Of a stretch of DNA of 64,000 nt, positions 26,673-43,141 are shown one piece after another. Every line of letters starts with the position of its first letter. Positions within the stretch are counted from its first letter, which is position 1. The stretch is from the IMG/VR virus record IMGVR_UViG_3300018429_000060, positions 27,307 to 91,306 of that record; one strand, written 5' to 3'. Position numbers and translations under genes: made by a program. Below the pieces are notes generated by a model. It did not search any database and was not told where the DNA came from. It saw nothing but the letters and a program-made list of their open reading frames with translations. Source of the DNA: a virus.

Positions 26673-27350
26673 ATGACCACCGCCCCGGACACCTGTCAGG
26701 TCGGAGACCCTGACCCGACCCCGGACATCGCCCCACTGCACGGGATGTGCGGCGCCGAGGACCAGGACTGGACCTGCACCCGGTACGCCGGCCACGCCGG
26801 CAGCCAGCACGTCGCCGGCTGCCTCGGCGTGGTGCGCCACGTCTGGCCCTGGGCGCCCGGTTGGCACCGCGGCCGCGCCCGGATCAGCGCCCGCAGCGAC
26901 GGTGGCGTCACCGTCCTGTGCCCCCTCGGCCACCTCGTCACCGCCGCCGCCCCCGGCCACTGGGCCGGCAGCGACCTGGCCGCGCGCATTGGTTTCGGCT
27001 GGGACGTCGAGTGCACCGGAGCCACCAGCCCACCCCCAACCCCTGTGAGCATCACCCGAGAGGAGAACCCCATGTCCACCGGCATCAGGTGGTCCGACTT
27101 CAGCGACGCCCAGCGCGCCGAGCTGACCACCTACCTCGAGACCGACCCCCGCGGCAAGGCCGTCGCCGACTACGCCGGCGACGACCCCGAGTTCCGGCTG
27201 TGGCTGCTGCGCGTCGACGCGGCCTGCGGCAAGCGCCTTCAGCTGTCGATGTTCGACCTGGCCGACTTCTGCTGGCGCGACGAGTACGACGCCGACGCGG
27301 CGCCCCGTGAGGCGCTGTCCGCCGCGATCGCCGCGGAAGGACTCGGCTGA
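26673..27350 (+). CDS. Hypothetical protein with internal in-frame start, 225 aa
   Basis: ATG 26673 follows GAGGAGG. The N-terminal half has paired Cys/His (DWTCTRYAGHAGSQHVAGC, VTVLCPLGH), possibly a zinc site. A strong GAGAGGAG sits inside the gene directly before an in-frame ATG at 27072, so a separate 92-aa C-terminal product (STGIRWSDFSDAQRAELTTY onward) may also be made. Function unknown. Confidence 0.6.
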   Translation: MTTAPDTCQVGDPDPTPDIAPLHGMCGAEDQDWTCTRYAGHAGSQHVAGCLGVVRHVWPWAPGWHRGRARISARSDGGVTVLCPLGHLVTAAAPGHWAGSDLAARIGFGWDVECTGATSPPPTPVSITREENPMSTGIRWSDFSDAQRAELTTYLETDPRGKAVADYAGDDPEFRLWLLRVDAACGKRLQLSMFDLADFCWRDEYDADAAPREALSAAIAAEGLG

Positions 27351-34182: not shown

Positions 34183-34353
34183 CTCTTCGGCCGACTCCGC
34201 GGAACGGCCTACTGGCGAGAACGCTAGCACCGAGCCACCGACGTCACCAACCCATAACCGTGCGTTACCGTGGCCGCGCGGTGGCGGCGTTTCGACAGGA
34301 GCCTGCCAGCTCCGCACCACAACCCGACCAGCGCGAAAGGGGCTCCCACCGGC

Positions 34354-36222
34354 ATGGCTGTCGTCGTCCACGTCTACGGGGTTCCGCCGGTCCTGCACGG
34401 CGAGCGGGTCCGGCTGCCCGCCGAGGTCGACGAGCAGCTGTCCTTGGCGCACTGCCTGCGCGAAGACCTCGTCACGCTGGAGCACCAGCGGCAGGACGCG
34501 GTCACCGCCGTCTGGTCCAGCTACCCGCAGATCGCCGCGATCGAAACCCAGCTCACGGCCGCCGAGACCGAGCTCACCGACCGTTCCGCGGCCGCGGCCG
34601 CGGAACGGTCCGCGGCCCGCAAGAAGGGTCCGACCGAGTCCTCCGAGGCGGTGCGTCAGCTCAAAGCCCGCATCAAGGACCTGCGCAGCCAGCGCCGCAC
34701 CGCCATCGCCGACGCCCACCCGACCGCCACACCGCGGCTCACCGCGATCGCCGACGCCCACCGCGCGGCCATCAAGGCCCTCTACGCCGACTACAGCCAG
34801 GGCCGCGGCCTGTACTGGGCCACCTACAACGACGTCGTTGCCCATCACCAGGTCGCCACCAAGAGGGTCGCGGCCGAACGCAAAGCCGGCCGCCCCGCCA
34901 ACATTCGGCATCACCGCTACGACGGCTCCGGCAGCATCACCGTGCAGCTCCAACGCCAGACCGGCGCACCGCCCCGGCTGCCGGCCACCATCGCCGACGA
35001 GCAGAACGGCCCCTGGCGCAACGTCCTGTACCTGACACCCTGGGTCGACCCCGACACCTGGGCCACCCTGGCGCGGGCCGAGCAGCGCCGCCGCCGCCTC
35101 GGCGTCGTTCGCCTCGACCTCGGCAACAAGCGCCACCTCAGCATCCCGGTGCTGGTCCACCGCATGTTGCCGGCGGACGCCGACATCACCAGCGCCCGGC
35201 TCGTCGTCCGCCGCGTCGCCGGCCACCGCAAGATCGAGCTGCACGTCACCGCCAGGATCAAGGATCCGGTGACCCGCTCCGGCGGGCCGGCCGTCGCCTT
35301 GCACCTCGGCTGGCGCCGCGAGGACGGCGGCGCCGTGCGCGTCGCCACCTGGCGCAGCACCGCCCCTGTCCACGTGCCGGACGACCTCAACGACCTGGTG
35401 CACGCCGACACCGACCACACCGGCACCATCTCCCTGCCCGCGCGCTGGTGGCACCGGGTGTCCACCCAGCCCGAGATGGCGGCCCGACGCGCCACCTCGC
35501 TCAACGACATCCGAGACCAGCTCGTCGCAGCCCTGACCGACAACCCACTCACGATCACCGCAGACGACGAGGACGCTCAGCCGGTCCCGACCGCCGCGGC
35601 GGTCGCGACGTGGCGTTCACCGGCCCGGTTCGCCCACCTCGCACGCACCTGGGCCACCGACTGCCCCGCAGGCCACCAGGCCACCGCCGCCGCCCTGGAA
35701 AACTGGCGACGCAGCGACCGCCGGCTCTGGGAACAGCAGGCGCACGGCACAGCCAATACCCTCGCGGCCCGCGCCGATGCCTACCGACGGACGATGTCCT
35801 GGCTACTGACCGGCGCCAGCCGACTGGTCCTGGACAACACGGCCATCGCCGACCTGGCCCGCCGCGCCGATCCCGCGACAGAGCCCACCCTGCCCACCGC
35901 GGTCACCGACCGGGTGGCCCACCAACGCATCGGCGCCTCACCCGGCCAACTCCGCAGCATCGCCACCACCACAGCGAACTCCTACGGCGTGGCCGTCGCC
36001 GTCATGCCCCACACGGGCATCACCCGCACCCACTACCGATGCGGACACCTCAATCCAGCCGACGACCGCTACTCGGCCGCCCGGATCGTCACCTGCGACG
36101 GCTGCGGTCAGCACTACGACCAGGAATCATCCGCAACCCTCATGCTGCTCGCCGCGAGCGGCGACGTGGCAGCACCCGGCAGCGCCACCGCTCGCAACCC
36201 CGACACCAGCGCACACGCGTAG
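34354..36222 (+). CDS. cas12m: Cas12m, type V-M (formerly V-U1) CRISPR effector, 622 aa
   Basis: An RNA-guided DNA-binding effector. The order of conserved segments follows known actinobacterial Cas12m proteins: LAHCLREDLVTLEHQ and WSSYPQIAAIE near the N-terminus, HHRYDGSGSITVQLQRQTGA, VALHLGWRRE (RuvC-I), LVLDNTAIADLA (RuvC-II), RTHYRCGHLNPADDRYSAAR, and CDGCGQHYDQESS (RuvC-III). The active-site positions read H317, D494 and D589, where cutting Cas12 enzymes have D, E and D. The zinc ribbon is C563, H565, C581, C584. Family members process their crRNA and bind DNA without cutting it, silencing the target. ATG 34354 has GAAAGGGG upstream, and the frame open to 34270 lacks one. The CRISPR array lies 107 bases downstream on the same strand. 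No Cas1 or Cas2 gene is nearby. Confidence 0.95.
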   Translation: MAVVVHVYGVPPVLHGERVRLPAEVDEQLSLAHCLREDLVTLEHQRQDAVTAVWSSYPQIAAIETQLTAAETELTDRSAAAAAERSAARKKGPTESSEAVRQLKARIKDLRSQRRTAIADAHPTATPRLTAIADAHRAAIKALYADYSQGRGLYWATYNDVVAHHQVATKRVAAERKAGRPANIRHHRYDGSGSITVQLQRQTGAPPRLPATIADEQNGPWRNVLYLTPWVDPDTWATLARAEQRRRRLGVVRLDLGNKRHLSIPVLVHRMLPADADITSARLVVRRVAGHRKIELHVTARIKDPVTRSGGPAVALHLGWRREDGGAVRVATWRSTAPVHVPDDLNDLVHADTDHTGTISLPARWWHRVSTQPEMAARRATSLNDIRDQLVAALTDNPLTITADDEDAQPVPTAAAVATWRSPARFAHLARTWATDCPAGHQATAAALENWRRSDRRLWEQQAHGTANTLAARADAYRRTMSWLLTGASRLVLDNTAIADLARRADPATEPTLPTAVTDRVAHQRIGASPGQLRSIATTTANSYGVAVAVMPHTGITRTHYRCGHLNPADDRYSAARIVTCDGCGQHYDQESSATLMLLAASGDVAAPGSATARNPDTSAHA

Positions 36223-36328: not shown

Positions 36329-36913
36329 GTCGCAACGCCTGCGTCGGGGCCTCGTGCCGACGACGAGTCGATCTGGCGGGAGGCTTGTCGACTCCCGGAG
36401 CTGTCGCAACGCCTGCGTCGGGGCCTCGTGCCGACGACCTCTGCACAAGCGCCGGGACGTGCTCGACACGACCTGGTCGCAACGCCTGCGTCGGGGCCTC
36501 GTGCCGACGACCTCTGCACAAGCGCCGGGACGTGCTCGACACGACCTGGTCGCAACGCCTGCGTCGGGGCGTCGTGCCGACGACGATGCGCCCACAGCCT
36601 GGTCGCACCGCCTGTGTCGGGGCGTCGTGCCGACGACTATGCCCCTTCGTGTGGCGGTGCTGTGGTGGCCGAGTGGTCGCACCGCCTGCGTGGGGGCGTC
36701 GTACCGACGACATGCTGATGAGTGATGTTGGGTCGCGGTGGTGACGTCGCACCGCCTGCGTGGGGGCGTCGTACCGACGACGCGGATGCATCCAGCCGAG
36801 CGCGTTCGCGCTCCAAGTCACACCGCCTGCGTTGGGGCTTCGTACCGACGACACGGTTCTGGTGTCGGTCATACACGGCGCATCGCCTGCGTGGGGGGCG
36901 TCGTGCCGACGAG
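36329..36913 (+). CRISPR. CRISPR array, nine 36-bp repeats and eight spacers
   Basis: Repeats: 36329-36364, 36403-36438, 36476-36511, 36549-36584, 36602-36637, 36676-36711, 36746-36781, 36817-36852, 36877-36913. Repeats 1-3 are identical. Later ones drift, and the last is 37 bases and ends GAG instead of GAC. Spacer lengths are 38, 37, 37, 17, 38, 34, 35 and 24. Spacers 2 and 3 are identical. A GTCGG/CCGAC stem lies near the repeat 3' end on the + strand, as expected for type V crRNAs in which the repeat hairpin precedes the guide, so transcription is rightward with cas12m. Confidence 0.97.
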
Positions 36914-36945
36914 ATGTGACACCTCACGGCGCGGTGGCGAGCCGG

Positions 36946-37851
36946 CTAGTGGTGCACGTCGAGGTAGTCGGCGATCATCTGGTCGAGTAGCTGCCACGGC
37001 TTGCCGGGCTCGACGGTTCCCGAGTCCACCGCCGCCTTCAGGGCGCGGGTCAGGGCGGCCGCGGTGGCTGCCGGCACGGTGCGACTGCCCAGCACGACCT
37101 CCAGGCCCACGTGGCCGCGGTGTCGCGGTTCGGTGGACATCGGGTCCAGGTAGCCGTCCTGCAGGTCGGTCAGGTGTCGTTCGGTGAGCGCGACGAGGAT
37201 GCCCATGGCGGTGGCCACGTTGCCCACGTTGTGCGCCGAGTGCGCCGAGGCGAGCGCGTCCAGGGTGGGCTGGTAGTCCTGGTAGGCGGCCAGCCACCGT
37301 TCGTCGGAGGTGCGGCCCAGCTGGTCCAGGGCGTCGCGGGCGGCGTCGGCCTCGCCGGCCAGGAACACCAGGTTCACCGTGTGGAAGGACAGGTTGGCCT
37401 CCGACAGCGGTTCCAGCGCGATCCGATCGAGCAGGTCCAGGGTCTTGTCGTCCAGGCCGGCGTAGGCGCGTTCGTCGATGTCGTCGATGCCGTCGTAGAG
37501 CTGTTTGAGGATGGCCAGGTCGTCGTCGCCCTCGATGGCGTTGTGCGACAGCTGCATCGCTAGCTGCCGCGCCTTGGGTAGGTCGTCGGTGACGAGCAGG
37601 AACCAGGCTTCCTCCAGGTCGGCGGCGATGCCGGCCTGGACTCGGTGGTTGCCCGACAGCACCAGCTCGTGGCCTTCTGCGTACTCGCCGGCGCCGCTGT
37701 AGATGAGCGGGGTGGAGGTGAGGGCGCCGTCGGTGCGGATGTTGGAGACGAGCCGGTCGAACTGTTCCTTGGTCATGTAGCGGGCGTTGACGTCGAGCAG
37801 GGTCAGGTCGGTCAGCCGGCGCCGCACCGGCAGCGGCTCGGACAGCCTCAC
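36946..37851 (-). CDS. ParB-like nuclease-domain protein, 301 aa
   Basis: The N-terminal domain matches the ParB/Spo0J-like fold used by phage and modification proteins: EQFDRLVSNIRTDGALTSTP, HELVLSGNHRVQAGIAADL. The C-terminal 180 residues are helical and of unknown role. GTG 37851 overlaps the upstream stop (GTGA). It is the last gene of a five-gene leftward operon that also encodes a terminase-type nuclease and a Mom-like protein. It lies apart from the parA locus and is therefore not a partition protein. It ends 33 bases from the CRISPR array. Confidence 0.75.
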   Translation of the reverse strand: MRLSEPLPVRRRLTDLTLLDVNARYMTKEQFDRLVSNIRTDGALTSTPLIYSGAGEYAEGHELVLSGNHRVQAGIAADLEEAWFLLVTDDLPKARQLAMQLSHNAIEGDDDLAILKQLYDGIDDIDERAYAGLDDKTLDLLDRIALEPLSEANLSFHTVNLVFLAGEADAARDALDQLGRTSDERWLAAYQDYQPTLDALASAHSAHNVGNVATAMGILVALTERHLTDLQDGYLDPMSTEPRHRGHVGLEVVLGSRTVPAATAAALTRALKAAVDSGTVEPGKPWQLLDQMIADYLDVHH

Positions 37852-38288
37852 CGCAACGGTCCCCGCACCACGCCGGCGGCCTCGTCGACGATCACCAGGT
37901 CGGCCGACAGTCCCTTGATCGGACCCGGCTGCCGTGGTCGCACCGCCGCGGCGTACTCGGCGGCGGCCACCGCCGCCAGCAGGCGCGGCCGGTCCTGCTC
38001 GGTGTCGCCGTAGATGGCCACCGCGCCGTCGACCAGCTGCACGCGCCATCCGTCGCCCGACCACACCACCCCACCCGGCTCGTCCGGCTCCGGCAGCAGC
38101 GCCTGCGACTGACTGATCAGCCGCACGGCGTGGCTCATCTGCTGCCCGGCGGCCTGCAGCGCCGGCACCAGCTGGCCCAGCCACGCGGCCACCTCGCCCA
38201 GCGACGCCACCAGCTCCCGCTGCAGCCGGCCGTGCGTCTCGTCCGGGTCGGAGGTGTCGTCCGGGTCGGTGTCGGGGAAGCCGGTCAT
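37848..38288 (-). CDS. Hypothetical protein, 146 aa
   Basis: ATGA overlap at its start and GTGA at its end, inside the packaging/modification operon. Helical N-terminal half (RELVASLGEVAAWLGQLVPA) and an alpha/beta C-terminal half (WRVQLVDGAVAIYGD). No family is recognised. Possibly an accessory of the nuclease encoded just upstream. Confidence 0.6.
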   Translation of the reverse strand: MTGFPDTDPDDTSDPDETHGRLQRELVASLGEVAAWLGQLVPALQAAGQQMSHAVRLISQSQALLPEPDEPGGVVWSGDGWRVQLVDGAVAIYGDTEQDRPRLLAAVAAAEYAAAVRPRQPGPIKGLSADLVIVDEAAGVVRGPLR

Positions 38289-38878
38289 AGTGCGACTCCT
38301 GCGTGTTGGTCGTGCATGATGTCGCCGGTCCACAGCGCGAGCTCGGCGGCCAGGACGAGGTCGTCGTGGCCGGTGGACGCCTCGTGCTTCTGGTAGCCGG
38401 TGCTGGTGGGCCGGGCGCGGAACCGGCCGAGCTGGTCCCCGAACGCCCGCGCGTTGGGCAGCTCCGGGGGGATGGTCACGCCGCGTTGTTCCAGGGCGAC
38501 CTGCAGCACCTCGGTCAGACGGTGCTTGCCCACGACGTACTCGTCGGGGTTGCTGTGGGTCAGGGTGCGGCCGGAGCTGATGCTGACCGCCACGATGTGC
38601 AGGTCCGGGCCGGCCTTGCGGGCCATCTCGACGACCGCGGCGCCGATGCCGGTGGCGTCGATGGTGGCGACCACCGGGTAGCCGGCGTCGACGAGCTCCT
38701 GGGCGACGGTGACCAGCAGGTCGGCCAGCTGCTGGTACGGGGTGCCGAGCTCGATGTTGCCGATGGAGAGCAGGTCCCACAGCGGCCGGTGCGAGTTCGG
38801 CCGCAGCCCCACGGTGCGCAGCGCGGCGAGCGCCGCCGGGTCCTGCTCCTTGCCGACGTCGAGGCCGAGCGAGATCAC
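38285..38878 (-). CDS. Terminase large-subunit nuclease-like protein, 197 aa
   Basis: The RNase H-like nuclease half of a packaging terminase, without an ATPase half. Acidic residues are D7 (LGLDVGKEQDPAAL), D74 (VVATIDATGIGAA) and D172/D173 (STGHDDLVLAAELALW), the typical metal-binding set. A terminase ATPase gene lies on the other strand at 41493. Either the packaging enzyme is split or this nuclease has another role, such as acting on modified DNA. Coupled on both sides by 4-base overlaps. Confidence 0.7.
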   Translation of the reverse strand: MISLGLDVGKEQDPAALAALRTVGLRPNSHRPLWDLLSIGNIELGTPYQQLADLLVTVAQELVDAGYPVVATIDATGIGAAVVEMARKAGPDLHIVAVSISSGRTLTHSNPDEYVVGKHRLTEVLQVALEQRGVTIPPELPNARAFGDQLGRFRARPTSTGYQKHEASTGHDDLVLAAELALWTGDIMHDQHAGVAL

Positions 38879-39159
38879 CGGCCGTCCCCGGCGAGGTCGG
38901 CGCCGTAGCCGCTCAGGGCGTGCTGCAGGGTCAACCAGTGGCCGGTGTCGCGGGCGGCGGCGACCCCGAGGGCGGCGCGGATCATGGTGGCGGCCAGCCG
39001 TTCGTCGCTCAGGTCACCGACCAGGTTCCCCGACGCCGTCAGGTGGGTGCCGTGGTTGTCGCAGATCGTGACGTGCACCATCAGCATCGGCTCGGTGCCG
39101 TCGTCGTCGTGGTGGTTCTCGACGGTGATCGGCACGTCGGTCCTCGAGGTCGTGGTCAC
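38875..39159 (-). CDS. Hypothetical protein, 94 aa
   Basis: GTG overlaps the Mom-like stop (GTGA), and the stop overlaps the nuclease start (ATGA). Begins with beta strands (DVPITVENHHDDDGTEPMLM), then a helix (RLAATMIRAALGVAAARDTG). Probably a small accessory of the operon. No family is recognised. Confidence 0.6.
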   Translation of the reverse strand: MTTTSRTDVPITVENHHDDDGTEPMLMVHVTICDNHGTHLTASGNLVGDLSDERLAATMIRAALGVAAARDTGHWLTLQHALSGYGADLAGDGR

Positions 39160-40547
39160 CGCGCCACCCCGGTCACCACCACCGGCCCCGCCGCCGCGTC
39201 GGCGGCCGTGGGGGTGAGGTGGGTGTGTTTGGCCTGCCACAGCTCCAGCGCCTCCGCGAGCGTCCACTGTCCGAGTGGCCCGCCGTACTGCAGCTGGTAG
39301 GTGTGGATGCCGTCGTCGCAGGGTTTGCGGCTGGTCAGTTTCACGCCGGGGATGCCGCGGCCGTACTTGGCCGACGTCGGGTTGTTGGTGAACGCCGTGG
39401 TGGCCCAGCCGAGGACCCGCTTGGACAGGGCCCGCTGCACCAGCAGCTGCGCCTCGTGGCTGATCGCGGCCATCACCACGAGCTTGGACAGCCGCCGCCA
39501 CTTCGACGGGGCGACCGCGAAGTCGGACATCAGGTAGGCGTCCAGCCCGAACTTCGGCGGCAGGTACCCGAACGCCCCGATGATCTTGCCGCCGGTGGAC
39601 ACCGCGCAGGAGAACAGCGGCGCGCCGGGGGCGATGCCCCGTCCCAGGTAGGCCGAGCGCAGCCCGTTGAACTGCGGTCCGGTCAGCGGGTGCAGCCGCA
39701 GGTCCTCACCGAGGTCGTCCTCGGGTGCCAGCCGGGCCATCAGCACCGGTTCGGTCTTCTGGTGCGGGCCGACGTAGCGGGCGATGCCCGGCTGGGCGAA
39801 CACCCAGATCGGCATCGCCCGCGGCCCGGTCTGCACGAACCCGACGCGGTAGGGCTCCAGCTGCGGCAGCTGGTAGTGCAGCCCGAGCAGCCAGTGCGGC
39901 CGGTCGATGACCAGCTGGATGATCTCGTTCTTGCCGTCGTCGTCCAGGATCTCGTAGGACGGCTCCGGCCAGTCGAAGTGGTCCTCGATGCCCTTGAACA
40001 TGGTCTCGTAGCCGGCCGCCCAGAACGGCGGGAACGACGCCACCGGCGCCTCCGGCGGGGCCTGCCGCAGGTACTCGCGCACGTCGCGGGCGTCGAACGA
40101 GGACAGCCGCAGCGTCGCCCTGGCGAGCTTGGCCACCGTGTCGGCGTGCAGGGTCGGCCACTGGTCACGGTAGGCGGCCACCATCCGCCGGTGGTAGGCG
40201 CCGGTCTTGCCGACGAAGGAGAACCAGCGGGTGCCCAGCATCAGCGTGGCCAGGGTGCCGATGCCGTCGTCGAGGTAGTCGTAGAGCCAGGACAGCTCCT
40301 CGACGAACTCGTCCTTGACGGTGAACGGCACCGGCTGCCCGGCGAACTGCCACCCCAGGGCGCACGAGTACGGGTTCACGTCGTTGGAGTGCAGCCGGAA
40401 CTCCCGCTCCGGGCAGGTCCCGGCCAGGGTGCGTTCGATGGTCAGGTTCCCGGAGCAGCCCACATAGACGTCGGCGCCGGCCGGCCACAGCCGGGCGTGC
40501 TGGGCGACGATGCTGCGCATCTCGGCCGGGATGGTGCCCTGGAACAC
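39156..40547 (-). CDS. Mom-like/antirestriction DNA-modification protein, 463 aa
   Basis: Two parts are seen. Residues about 1-130 hold a methyltransferase-like segment (DVYVGCSGNLTIERTL, then HSNDVNPYSCALGW). Residues about 280-440 form a GNAT-like acyltransferase part (SKLVVMAAISHEAQLLVQRA, GWATTAFTNNPTSAKYGRG) resembling phage Mom-type proteins, which put a bulky group on adenine to block restriction. Actinophage relatives are annotated as putative antirestriction adenine methyltransferases. GTG 40547 is chosen because GGAGG lies 7 bases upstream. The frame reaching 40610 has no ribosome site and abuts the tRNA-like gene. The chemical modification made is unknown. Confidence 0.65.
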   Translation of the reverse strand: MFQGTIPAEMRSIVAQHARLWPAGADVYVGCSGNLTIERTLAGTCPEREFRLHSNDVNPYSCALGWQFAGQPVPFTVKDEFVEELSWLYDYLDDGIGTLATLMLGTRWFSFVGKTGAYHRRMVAAYRDQWPTLHADTVAKLARATLRLSSFDARDVREYLRQAPPEAPVASFPPFWAAGYETMFKGIEDHFDWPEPSYEILDDDGKNEIIQLVIDRPHWLLGLHYQLPQLEPYRVGFVQTGPRAMPIWVFAQPGIARYVGPHQKTEPVLMARLAPEDDLGEDLRLHPLTGPQFNGLRSAYLGRGIAPGAPLFSCAVSTGGKIIGAFGYLPPKFGLDAYLMSDFAVAPSKWRRLSKLVVMAAISHEAQLLVQRALSKRVLGWATTAFTNNPTSAKYGRGIPGVKLTSRKPCDDGIHTYQLQYGGPLGQWTLAEALELWQAKHTHLTPTAADAAAGPVVVTGVAR

Positions 40548-40624
40548 GCTCGGGCCTCCGCAGCACAAATCTGGGCTGGGGCGCCCGGCCACGGATGCCA
40601 GTCGACGCACAACAACGGTGAGTG

Positions 40625-40696
40625 AGCGCCGGCACGGCCTCGAACCGCCCCTACCGCCTGGAATGGCGGTCGTGCTACCAGCTACACCACCAGCGC
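40625..40696 (-). tRNA. tRNA-like gene with an expanded anticodon loop
   Basis: 72 bases fold as a cloverleaf on the minus strand: acceptor GCGCTGG/CCGGCGC (7 bp with one G-U), D-stem GTGT/GCAC, T-arm with TTCGAGG loop (one mismatch). The anticodon arm is 18 rather than 17 bases: ACCGC/GCGGT with an 8-base loop CATTCCAG (or 6 bp with a 6-base loop). TCC (Gly) or CCA (Trp) could be read. No CCA is encoded. It lies 78 bases upstream of the Mom-like start. Confidence 0.65.
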
Positions 40697-40819
40697 ATGA
40701 CTCGTCGCGGATGGTAACGCACCGCAGGTCAGGCTGCCCCTAGACTCCCCGGTGACGATCACCGGGCCTGGCGCACATGGCCGCCGGAAGCACTCGTGCT
40801 TTCGGGAGGGCCCGCCGGC

Positions 40820-41488
40820 GTGTCGACGACCTTCCGTTACGCCTCCGGCCGGGACATGTGGGACCGGCAGCTGGGTGAGCCGGCCGAGGAATACGACTGG
40901 TTCCTGCACTGGCGCAACGAGGCCCACCGCCGCACCTACGTGGCCACCGCGCTGAAGTTCGGGATCAGCCCGGTCACGGTGACGCGGGTCGCGAAACAGA
41001 ACCGCTGGCCCGAACGGCTGCTGGCGTGGAAGGCCGACAACTCGCGGCTGCTGCACGAGCGGTTCACCGATCTGCTCGAACAGTCGATGGTGCCGTTCGC
41101 GCAGGGCATGGTGCGGATGGCCGCCCACACCGCCCGCGCCCCGCTGGACAAGATCCCGGCCGATCGGGCGATGACCGCGTTCGCCGCGGCCCTGCGGGTG
41201 ATCAAGGAACCGGGCATCGCGGACCTCATCCGCATCTCGGCTGCGTCCGGGATGGCCAACCGCGAGATCGACCTCGCCGCGGTCATCCTCGACCGGCTGG
41301 CCGCACAGTTCCCCGAGGCCCACGACGCGGTCCTGGACGCACTGGACGCCGCCACCCAGAACCCCGCCGGGCCGCTGGTCCTCGACGCCGCCCCCGTCCC
41401 GGCCGCCGTCCCCGCCGGCGCCGGCGGCGCTGTCGACGGTGGTGTCGACGACGGGGACGACTGCGTGATCGACCCAGGGAACGGCTGA
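40820..41488 (+). CDS. Terminase small-subunit-like protein, 222 aa
   Basis: Placed directly before the terminase ATPase. The first 80 residues contain a helix-turn-helix-like segment (YVATALKFGISPVTVTRVAK, QNRWPERLLAWK), typical of small terminases that recognise the packaging site. The middle is helical, the tail Ala/Pro/Asp-rich. GTG 40820 has GGGAGGG 9 bases upstream. Confidence 0.7.
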   Translation: MSTTFRYASGRDMWDRQLGEPAEEYDWFLHWRNEAHRRTYVATALKFGISPVTVTRVAKQNRWPERLLAWKADNSRLLHERFTDLLEQSMVPFAQGMVRMAAHTARAPLDKIPADRAMTAFAAALRVIKEPGIADLIRISAASGMANREIDLAAVILDRLAAQFPEAHDAVLDALDAATQNPAGPLVLDAAPVPAAVPAGAGGAVDGGVDDGDDCVIDPGNG

Positions 41489-41492
41489 CCCC

Positions 41493-42317
41493 ATGGCGTC
41501 CGTCACGGTGCTCTCGGAGTTCCTGGCCCGTCGCGACCCGGCCCGGATGATGCGCCAGGCCGGGATGCCCCCCGACACGTGGCAGTCCACCCTGCTGCGC
41601 CGCCGACCGCACCGGGCGCTGGTCACCACCTCCCGGCAGGCCGGCAAGAGCAGCGTCGCCGGCGCGATGGGCCTGCACCGCGCCGCCGAGAAGCCCCGCC
41701 AGACCATCGTCGCCGTCTCGCCCACCCAGCGGCAGTCCGCGCTGCTGGTGTCGAAGGTCCGCCGCTACGCTCAGGCGCTCGGGCTGCAGCTGGCCCGCGA
41801 CAACACCCTGTCGCTGGAGCTGGCCAACGAGTCCGTCGTGTACGCGCTGCCCGGCCACCCGGACACCGTCCGCGGCTACTCCCCCGACCTGCTGATCATC
41901 GACGAGGCCGCGTACACCACCGAAGCGCTCTACACCGCGTGCCTGCCGATGCTCGCCGCCACCGGCGGCGACCTCATCGCCATCTCCACCCCGAACGGCA
42001 AACAGGGCTGGTACTGGGCCGAGTGGTCCGGGCAGGGCGCACCGGGCTGGATGAAGATCCAGGTCCCCTACACCCGCATCCGGCGCATCAGCGCCGAGTT
42101 CATCACCTCCCAGCGGGCGTCGATGTCGCGGGAGCGGTTCTCCACCGAGTACGAGTGCGCGTTCAACTCCTCCACGTTCGGCCTGTTCAACGCCGGCGAC
42201 CTGGCCGCCGCGCTGCAGGCCGAGCCGATGGCGGCCGGCGGCGGTGGCCTGCCCGACGCGCGGGAGATCATGCGCCGCAACCGGGACCGGTTCGCCGCCG
42301 GGCAGGCCGCCTCATGA
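41493..42317 (+). CDS. terL: Terminase large subunit, ATPase domain only, 274 aa
   Basis: The DNA-packaging motor. Walker A SRQAGKS at residues 47-53, Walker B LLIIDEAA with D137/E138, and coupling motif LIAISTPNG near 165. Typical large terminases exceed 450 residues with a C-terminal nuclease. Here the protein stops after the ATPase, and the next gene, overlapping by ATGA, encodes an RNase H-like protein. So the two halves are separate genes. Confidence 0.85.
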   Translation: MASVTVLSEFLARRDPARMMRQAGMPPDTWQSTLLRRRPHRALVTTSRQAGKSSVAGAMGLHRAAEKPRQTIVAVSPTQRQSALLVSKVRRYAQALGLQLARDNTLSLELANESVVYALPGHPDTVRGYSPDLLIIDEAAYTTEALYTACLPMLAATGGDLIAISTPNGKQGWYWAEWSGQGAPGWMKIQVPYTRIRRISAEFITSQRASMSRERFSTEYECAFNSSTFGLFNAGDLAAALQAEPMAAGGGGLPDAREIMRRNRDRFAAGQAAS

Positions 42318-43141
42318 GCACCCCGCCGCTGGCGCCGCGGCAGCAGCGCACCGACGCCCCCGCCGGCCCCGACGCCCGCGTCCTGGCCCTGGACATCGGC
42401 CTCTACGGGCACCTCGGGTCGATCAGCTCGATGTTCTGGTACCAGCGCGGTGGGCTGCTCCACGCCCACCAGGCGCAGCTGCTGCCCGAGGGTGCGACCC
42501 TGCTGGACCAGCTGGACATCCTGGAGGCGACCGCCGCCTCCTACGAGGAGTACCGGCGGATCAGCCCGGTGGTGGTCCTCGGTGTCACCGTGCTGTCGCC
42601 GGTCGGCCGCCGCGAGGTCCGCGGCCACCTGGAGTCCTGGTTCAACCCGCCGTGGCGGCGGCGCCTGGTGGCCATCGGGGACTACGCCGGCGAGCACATC
42701 GCCGTCCGCGGCCTGGTCTCCCGCAAGAAGCTGCGGGACCTGATCTCGACCCGGCTGACCGAGCACACCCTCACGCTCACCCCCGAGCAGCACGACGCCG
42801 TCGCCCTCTACACCGGCCGCCGGGAGAAACCCGGCCGCGACCCGGACGACGAGTGGCGCACCGACGAGGTCGACGCGGTCGCCCTGCCGGTGGCGCTGTC
42901 CTGCCTCGGCGCGACGGCGCTGCTGCCGGCGCCGATGCCCACCCCGCAGCAACGCCAACGCGACCTCGAGCGCGCGATGCGCGCCTGGCAGGTGCAGCTG
43001 GACCTGTCCAACGACGACGCCTGGGACCGCGCCGTGCGCCACGGCCACCCGCACCACCAGACCACCGCCGCTGTCAGCGGCGCCGTGCCCATGCCCGACC
43101 GGTCCACCCCGACCTTCGGCAGCCTGCGATGGAAGGACTGA
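42314..43141 (+). CDS. RNase H-fold-like protein after the terminase ATPase, 275 aa
   Basis: ATG overlaps the ATPase stop. VLALDIGLYGHLGSISSMFW near residue 25, and a late acidic helix EWRTDEVDAVALPVALSCL, resemble the first and last motifs of an RNase H-type nuclease, and the position is that of the missing terminase nuclease half. The middle acidic residue is not clear. An alternative is a divergent nuclease with its own role, as a more canonical terminase nuclease lies at 38285. Confidence 0.55.
   Translation: MSTPPLAPRQQRTDAPAGPDARVLALDIGLYGHLGSISSMFWYQRGGLLHAHQAQLLPEGATLLDQLDILEATAASYEEYRRISPVVVLGVTVLSPVGRREVRGHLESWFNPPWRRRLVAIGDYAGEHIAVRGLVSRKKLRDLISTRLTEHTLTLTPEQHDAVALYTGRREKPGRDPDDEWRTDEVDAVALPVALSCLGATALLPAPMPTPQQRQRDLERAMRAWQVQLDLSNDDAWDRAVRHGHPHHQTTAAVSGAVPMPDRSTPTFGSLRWKD

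Follow-up and report, generated by a model that had tools for sequence, protein, structure and literature searches.

A tRNA gene linked to a phage DAM-like/GNAT fusion enzyme: charged tRNA as a possible amino-acid donor for DNA modification

In this work, we present an analysis of a gene unit found in 64,000 nucleotides of viral DNA (IMG/VR record IMGVR_UViG_3300018429_000060, positions 27,307 to 91,306), a stretch referred to below as the window. The unit joins a tRNA gene, a gene for an enzyme in which a DAM-like and a GNAT-like domain are fused (gene A) and a gene for a ParB-like protein (gene E). The tRNA gene is linked to that of the enzyme, and the explanation we favour, with a probability of roughly 0.6, is that A joins an amino acid taken from a dedicated charged tRNA to a base of the phage DNA. 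We strongly infer that the charged tRNA serves as the amino-acid donor; DNA is the likely acceptor, and what is proposed below for the modified base and for the function of E is presumed.

Charged tRNAs are known to feed the chemistry of cell walls, lipids and natural products. No description of a charged tRNA feeding DNA modification was found in the open-access literature; since preprints and subscription journals lay outside that search, the process may have been described elsewhere. If the proposal is true, it reveals a further source of DNA chemistry, and a family of hypothetical proteins from phages of actinobacteria and clostridia would become an enzyme whose substrate can be tested. 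It would also suggest from what source enzymes of the Mom type may obtain their glycine-like group, which is an open question. Direct tests are possible, because the unit is carried by cultured phages: Mycobacterium phage Jeon, Gordonia phage Sting and Faecalibacterium phage FP_Brigit.

Linkage of the tRNA gene to genes A and E

The only tRNA that ARAGORN finds in the window lies on the minus strand, which is the strand of gene A, at 40624-40696, 76 bp upstream of the A start. Its acceptor stem is GCGCTGG/CCGGCGC, the discriminator is U73 and TTCC lies within an anticodon loop of 8 or 6 nucleotides; because of this irregular loop the program reported it as 'tRNA-???', with no amino acid named. 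It scores 66.3 bits in our alignment R1 and is glycine-like. The sequence-only reading had placed the operon at 36946-40547, a span which leaves this first element out. In Mycobacterium phage Jeon a tRNA-Gly gene (L007, 7893-7964) likewise precedes the A homologue, and the annotated start of gene 68 falls inside it.

The relatives of A gathered from viral genomes and contigs form 52 clusters at 90% identity. In 42 of these a tRNA gene flanks the A-E pair (24 Gly, 17 Lys and 1 Pro), upstream of A in 39, typically within 250 bp, and after E in the remaining three; in one of the 39 (L040) it is on the opposite strand. Other tRNAs are few in these sequences, namely a single Leu tRNA, and Met tRNAs in two of the clusters. 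The seven whole phage records, that of the window included, hold exactly one match each to the tRNA-Gly model, and by coordinates it lies at A in 7/7. The degenerate tRNAs, most of which were missed at the Rfam gathering cut-offs, were detected with models built in this analysis. In every locus with enough sequence gene E comes immediately 3' of A or is separated from it by a short insert of at least one gene, and terminase genes come after A-E in most loci. The conserved core consists of the tRNA, A and E. Of the gene order of the operon, the A-E adjacency recurs in other phages; the nuclease gene of the operon, gene C, is confined to one clade, and gene B was not found in the other A loci compared.

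Along the tree of the enzyme the amino-acid label of the tRNA changes just three times. The only proline tRNA (anticodon TGG; L070, 3779-3854) is found beside A inside a lysine clade. In Microbacterium phage ValentiniPuff a tRNA-like gene (L098, 4855-4927), whose CGT anticodon sits in a loop of 6 nt, stands just before gene 1, which is A, across the genome end; no viral relatives were found with this phage as a query.

The tRNA rule was tested on new data, that is on prophages found through PF22555 in 398 and 392 bacterial genomes, which yielded 14 loci; as a control, the same family was found in 0/14 well-known genomes. E adjoins A in 14/14 of these loci and a gene resembling that of the terminase small subunit (TerS) comes next in 14/14. 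Where upstream sequence was present and the locus fell outside the tRNA-less clade described below, an upstream tRNA was found in 7/7 cases (five Gly, one Lys with a CTT anticodon and one Arg-like with TCG); a locus with no upstream sequence (L124) is outside this count. Six further prophage loci (L126, L127, L129-L132) had no tRNA. Judged by the 45-48% identity of their A proteins to that of the window and by layout, and not by a position on the tree, they are akin to the tRNA-less group of L018. The Arg-like tRNA (L128, 5318-5394) lies about 0.9 kb upstream of A.

Charging identity and decoding features of the tRNAs

The glycine tRNAs form a cloverleaf supported by covariation: among 15 of them compensatory changes occur in 16 of 21 pairs, far more than in slid or shuffled controls, and 95.6% of cells are paired as compared with 43-48% in slid controls. 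The identity set of bacterial glycyl-tRNA synthetase comprises U73, G1-C72, C2-G71, G3-C70, C35 and C36 (PMC9976931), and all of these positions are kept in 20/20 Gly tRNAs of our alignment A8. The anticodon varies (TCC, CCC, ACC) with no change of amino acid. In the only Pro tRNA A73, G72, G35, G36 and G37 are present, which is the full bacterial proline set (PMC9976931). The Lys tRNAs have A73, U35, U36 and C34, with U33 lost in three of them (L066, L068, L083).

Features needed for decoding have decayed over the same molecules, and 11 of the 20 Gly tRNAs show at least one departure. U33 is replaced in seven (L004, L006, L010, L031, L034, L043, L044), six no longer have TTC in the T-loop (L006, L032, L034, L043, L044, L050), the window tRNA has its irregular anticodon loop and the tRNA of L013 is without a D arm. 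Four of these tRNAs carry GTGC in the T-loop, which also marks the staphylococcal tRNA-Gly that serves in peptidoglycan synthesis. As a set, the 20 tRNAs have what FemABX-like use of aminoacyl-tRNA calls for, a dedicated tRNA with synthetase identity and poor decoding features.

These data bear on one alternative, in which the tRNA is an ordinary phage feature: a codon supplement, the remnant of an integration site or a signal for processing the operon mRNA. tRNAs are frequent in phages, and the one in the window is placed by ARAGORN at the operon head. We nevertheless hold this explanation to be improbable: the amino acid differs between enzyme clades, the odd anticodon loop, the lost U33, T-loop motif or D arm affect 11/20 tRNAs, GGA accounts for 4% of glycine codons among the genes of the window phage that were counted, and in three loci the tRNA follows E instead of preceding A. 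The preservation of synthetase identity through this decay, and the recurrence of the tRNA at A-E in sequences where other tRNAs are nearly absent, support the role of the charged tRNA as the donor.

Gene A and the proposed transfer of an amino acid to DNA

Gene A (40547-39156, minus strand; 463 amino acids) is predicted to encode an aminoacyl-tRNA:DNA aminoacyltransferase. Both of its domains score above the curated cut-off of 27 bits within this single protein: PF22555 (DAM-like) with E=3.6e-92 and 309 bits, and PF22559 (GNAT-like) with E=2.4e-50 and 171 bits. Pfam and motif reading place the former, a Rossmann methyltransferase domain, at residues 2-272 (39732..40544) and the latter at residues 281-441 (39225..39707). 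A is a full-length member of both Pfam families (DAM-like-phage1 and GNAT-phage-like) and of PHROG phrog_7858; these families have no stated function, and a tRNA partner is not part of their descriptions as displayed by the search tools. With the GNAT domain alone as a query, no other phage architecture was found.

The AlphaFold2 model of A has a mean predicted local distance difference test score (pLDDT) of 90.3, and Foldseek matches it in the PDB to GNATs, phage Mu Mom among them (8bv8, E=7.5e-4), and to methyltransferase folds. The sequence-only reading had called A a Mom-like modification enzyme; by these matches, among which many GNATs score better than Mom, the name may stand as a statement of fold. 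A role in DNA modification is plausible. Residues conserved in the GNAT domain are R297, G324, R352-L-x-K/R-L, T383, P390, R397-G398 and Y421. The R/Q-x-x-G-x-G/A loop, which binds the pyrophosphate of acetyl-CoA, was not found in this domain: the window has RRLSKL and the 89 homologues RL-x-K/R-L.

Enzymes of GNAT fold that take amino acids from aminoacyl-tRNA, some of them from Gly-tRNA, are known (PMC12945691), and Staphylococcus aureus has a specialised tRNA-Gly for such use, which is poorly used in translation (PMC4810233). Together with a GNAT fold from which the acetyl-CoA loop is missing, these precedents support the donor role of the tRNA. FemABX, DhpK and Orf11 share with A the fold and, by our proposal, the use of Gly-tRNA. 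These enzymes have two GNAT domains each and transfer to peptides or small molecules, while A has one GNAT and one DAM-like domain and its tRNA is encoded alongside it. Along its whole length A also aligns structurally with A0A8S5SJK3 of BFVD (Siphoviridae sp. ct4Uy2; E=6.1e-24), an amidoligase-fused homologue of 695 amino acids which, unlike A, is annotated as an amidoligase; it is possibly a tRNA-free variant with another way of activating the amino acid.

Mom itself, whose product in momylation is N6-carbamoylmethyl-adenine, suggests a competing explanation, namely that A is an acyl-CoA-dependent DNA-modification enzyme and the tRNA a passenger or an aid to translation. The two proteins are alike in their GNAT fold, their phage origin and a presumed acylation of DNA bases, the Foldseek match agrees with it, and an acyl-CoA 'such as glycyl coA' was proposed as the Mom donor (PMC7824862). 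Mom is, however, a lone GNAT, whereas A is fused to a methyltransferase fold and paired with a ParB-like protein and a tRNA. The acyl-CoA explanation is unlikely in view of the recurrence of the tRNA in 42/52 clusters and 7/7 eligible new loci, with other tRNAs nearly absent, of the decay of U33 and the T-loop motif in tRNAs that retain their synthetase identity, and of the missing acetyl-CoA loop.

A different role for the tRNA would follow if A acted on aminoacyl-tRNA or tRNA in the manner of the GNAT toxins that acetylate Gly-tRNA, with the phage tRNA as target, decoy or antidote. One such toxin, TacT, recognises U73 and G71 in the Gly-tRNA that it acetylates (PMC9976931), and both are kept in the phage tRNAs; some of the methyltransferase-fold matches of A, moreover, are RNA methyltransferases. 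Toxin-antitoxin systems of the TacT type, though, consist of a small stand-alone GNAT by a DUF1778-type antitoxin; the 463-residue A has no toxin-like neighbours, and its constant partners are the ParB-like E and terminase genes. A Gly-tRNA toxin would not be expected to have a DAM-like fusion, nor to occur in an identical arrangement with tRNAs for Lys and Pro, and the acetyl-CoA loop is again missing, which leaves this explanation only a small chance.

In the donor-and-acceptor scheme that we prefer as the simplest, the functional unit would consist of the tRNA, A and E, gene C being a clade-specific addition. A host synthetase would charge the phage tRNA, with glycine in the window phage, and this tRNA would be ill-suited to translation. 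The DAM-like domain of A would bind DNA and present a base, to whose amino group the GNAT domain would pass the amino acid from the charged tRNA; the donor is thus an aminoacyl-tRNA in place of the acyl-CoA of Mom. As a DNA-binding protein encoded beside the packaging genes, E may load or spread A on the phage DNA, and it is on account of the ParB-like E and the terminase context that DNA is taken as the acceptor. Phage DNA aminoacylated in this way, with glycyl groups in the window phage and lysyl or prolyl groups in its relatives, would withstand the nucleases of the host. The chances are about even that such units form a class of phage hypermodification, in which a translation-poor dedicated tRNA brings an amino acid to a DNA base and the tRNA carried (Gly, Lys, Pro, perhaps Thr or Arg) sets which one; if so, the mark could be changed by swapping the tRNA.

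Several observations weigh against this scheme. To our knowledge, no base modification is known in these phages. Motif IV of A is FPPF in the window and NPPT in the lysine clade, which does not fit the (D/N/S)PP(Y/F/W) pattern of N6-adenine methyltransferases, so that the base chemistry would be unlike the standard one. FemX is absent from the best 50 PDB matches of A, the nearest being acetyl-CoA enzymes and Mom. The methyltransferase domain also resembles the RNA methyltransferases AviRa and TrmN, which makes RNA a possible target of A. Among the tRNAs, those of the second glycine clade (L076 and kin) keep C2-G71, G3-C70, U73, C35 and C36 and have C1-G72, not G1-C72, and those of the lysine clade have C34 as against U34 in the published bacterial lysine set. 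Finally, the tRNA is not universal: nine clusters have none nearby, and their enzymes would have to use a host tRNA. Six of the nine belong to two clades, those of L018 and of L005/L012/L039. An unfiltered search with the tRNA models in nine tRNA-negative loci representing the tRNA-less group gave nothing above chance, and at the Rfam gathering cut-offs none was found in it either.

A-E-TerS without a tRNA is the layout of a group of elements, L018-L022, L024-L028, L030, L033 and L035, many of them on contigs of about 20 kb, in which a conserved hairpin-rich leader stands ahead of A in place of the tRNA. The L018 group may represent satellites or prophages that use host tRNA.

Remaining operon genes and neighbouring elements

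The operon of five genes, all on the minus strand in the order A, B, C, D, E behind the tRNA gene, was borne out, as each of the four junctions is a 4-bp overlap (GTGA, GTGA, ATGA, GTGA). Gene E (37851-36946; 301 amino acids), which adjoins A among relatives, matches phrog_7405 (E=6.5e-60), and profile searches against PDB detect a ParB N-terminal domain (ParB/Spo0J entries 7bnr, 1vz0 and 6t1f, best E=1.2e-5), in agreement with its earlier description as ParB-like; single sequences stay below the Pfam cut-off. ParB CTPases carry the motifs GERRxR and ENxQR, and in the corresponding regions E has SG(N/H)HR and HNxxxGxxD.

Gene B (39159-38875; 94 amino acids) and gene D (38288-37848; 146 amino acids) are orphan open reading frames for which no established relatives were found, and the search with D gave no phage homologue. 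The tail of D (37848-37920; GLSADLVIVDEA, GLSADLVIVDEAAG) resembles the Walker B segment of the terminase large subunit (TerL), with a weak match to phrog_7579 (E=0.0043), and is a possible TerL remnant judging by its sequence.

Gene C (38878-38285; 197 amino acids) was rightly recognised as a terminase-type nuclease of RNase H fold: its profile matches the TerL nuclease 5m1q in the PDB (E=7e-4), and the aspartates D7, D74 and D172/D173 are invariant in the three phages which have it (the window, L003 and L004), at about 60% identity. It shares the fold and the aspartates with the TerL nucleases (Sf6 gp2, G20C TerL) and differs from them in having no ATPase domain and in its position in a modification operon on the opposite strand. 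The AlphaFold2 model of C is of low confidence (pLDDT 60.7) and was never used as sole evidence.

The terminase genes diverge from the operon: TerS at 40796..41488 on the plus strand (phrog_6299) is followed by the ATPase part of TerL at 41493..42317 on the plus strand (phrog_7579) and by the nuclease part of this split terminase at 42314-43141. In all three related phages the second catalytic aspartate seems, by eye, to be missing from the latter. Since no aspartate is found there at the position of D74 of C, we would guess that C supplies the packaging nuclease activity.

The sequence-only reading had combined these genes into a self-marking system, with a nuclease C that would cut modified DNA or leave it intact, and with Cas12m as its partner in a joint defence island. 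The conservation of C and of its catalytic aspartates across the three phages speaks in favour of this, but C occurs in just 3/52 A clusters, and no homologue was found between A and E in L016, L031 and L032, where it was looked for. Nothing supports its acting on or sparing modified DNA. A search of six related phage records, run without a positive control, turned up no Cas12m relative, and PADLOC assigns no defence family to A or E. We thus regard this system as very improbable.

The Cas12 gene itself lies at 34270-36222 and is assigned by PADLOC to Cas12u1/Cas12f (E=5.1e-149), which agrees with a type V-U1/V-M effector. Between it and gene E a CRISPR-like array (36329-36916) is found, with eight 36-nt repeats and a diverged ninth, a spacing of 53-74 nt and two units with an identical spacer.

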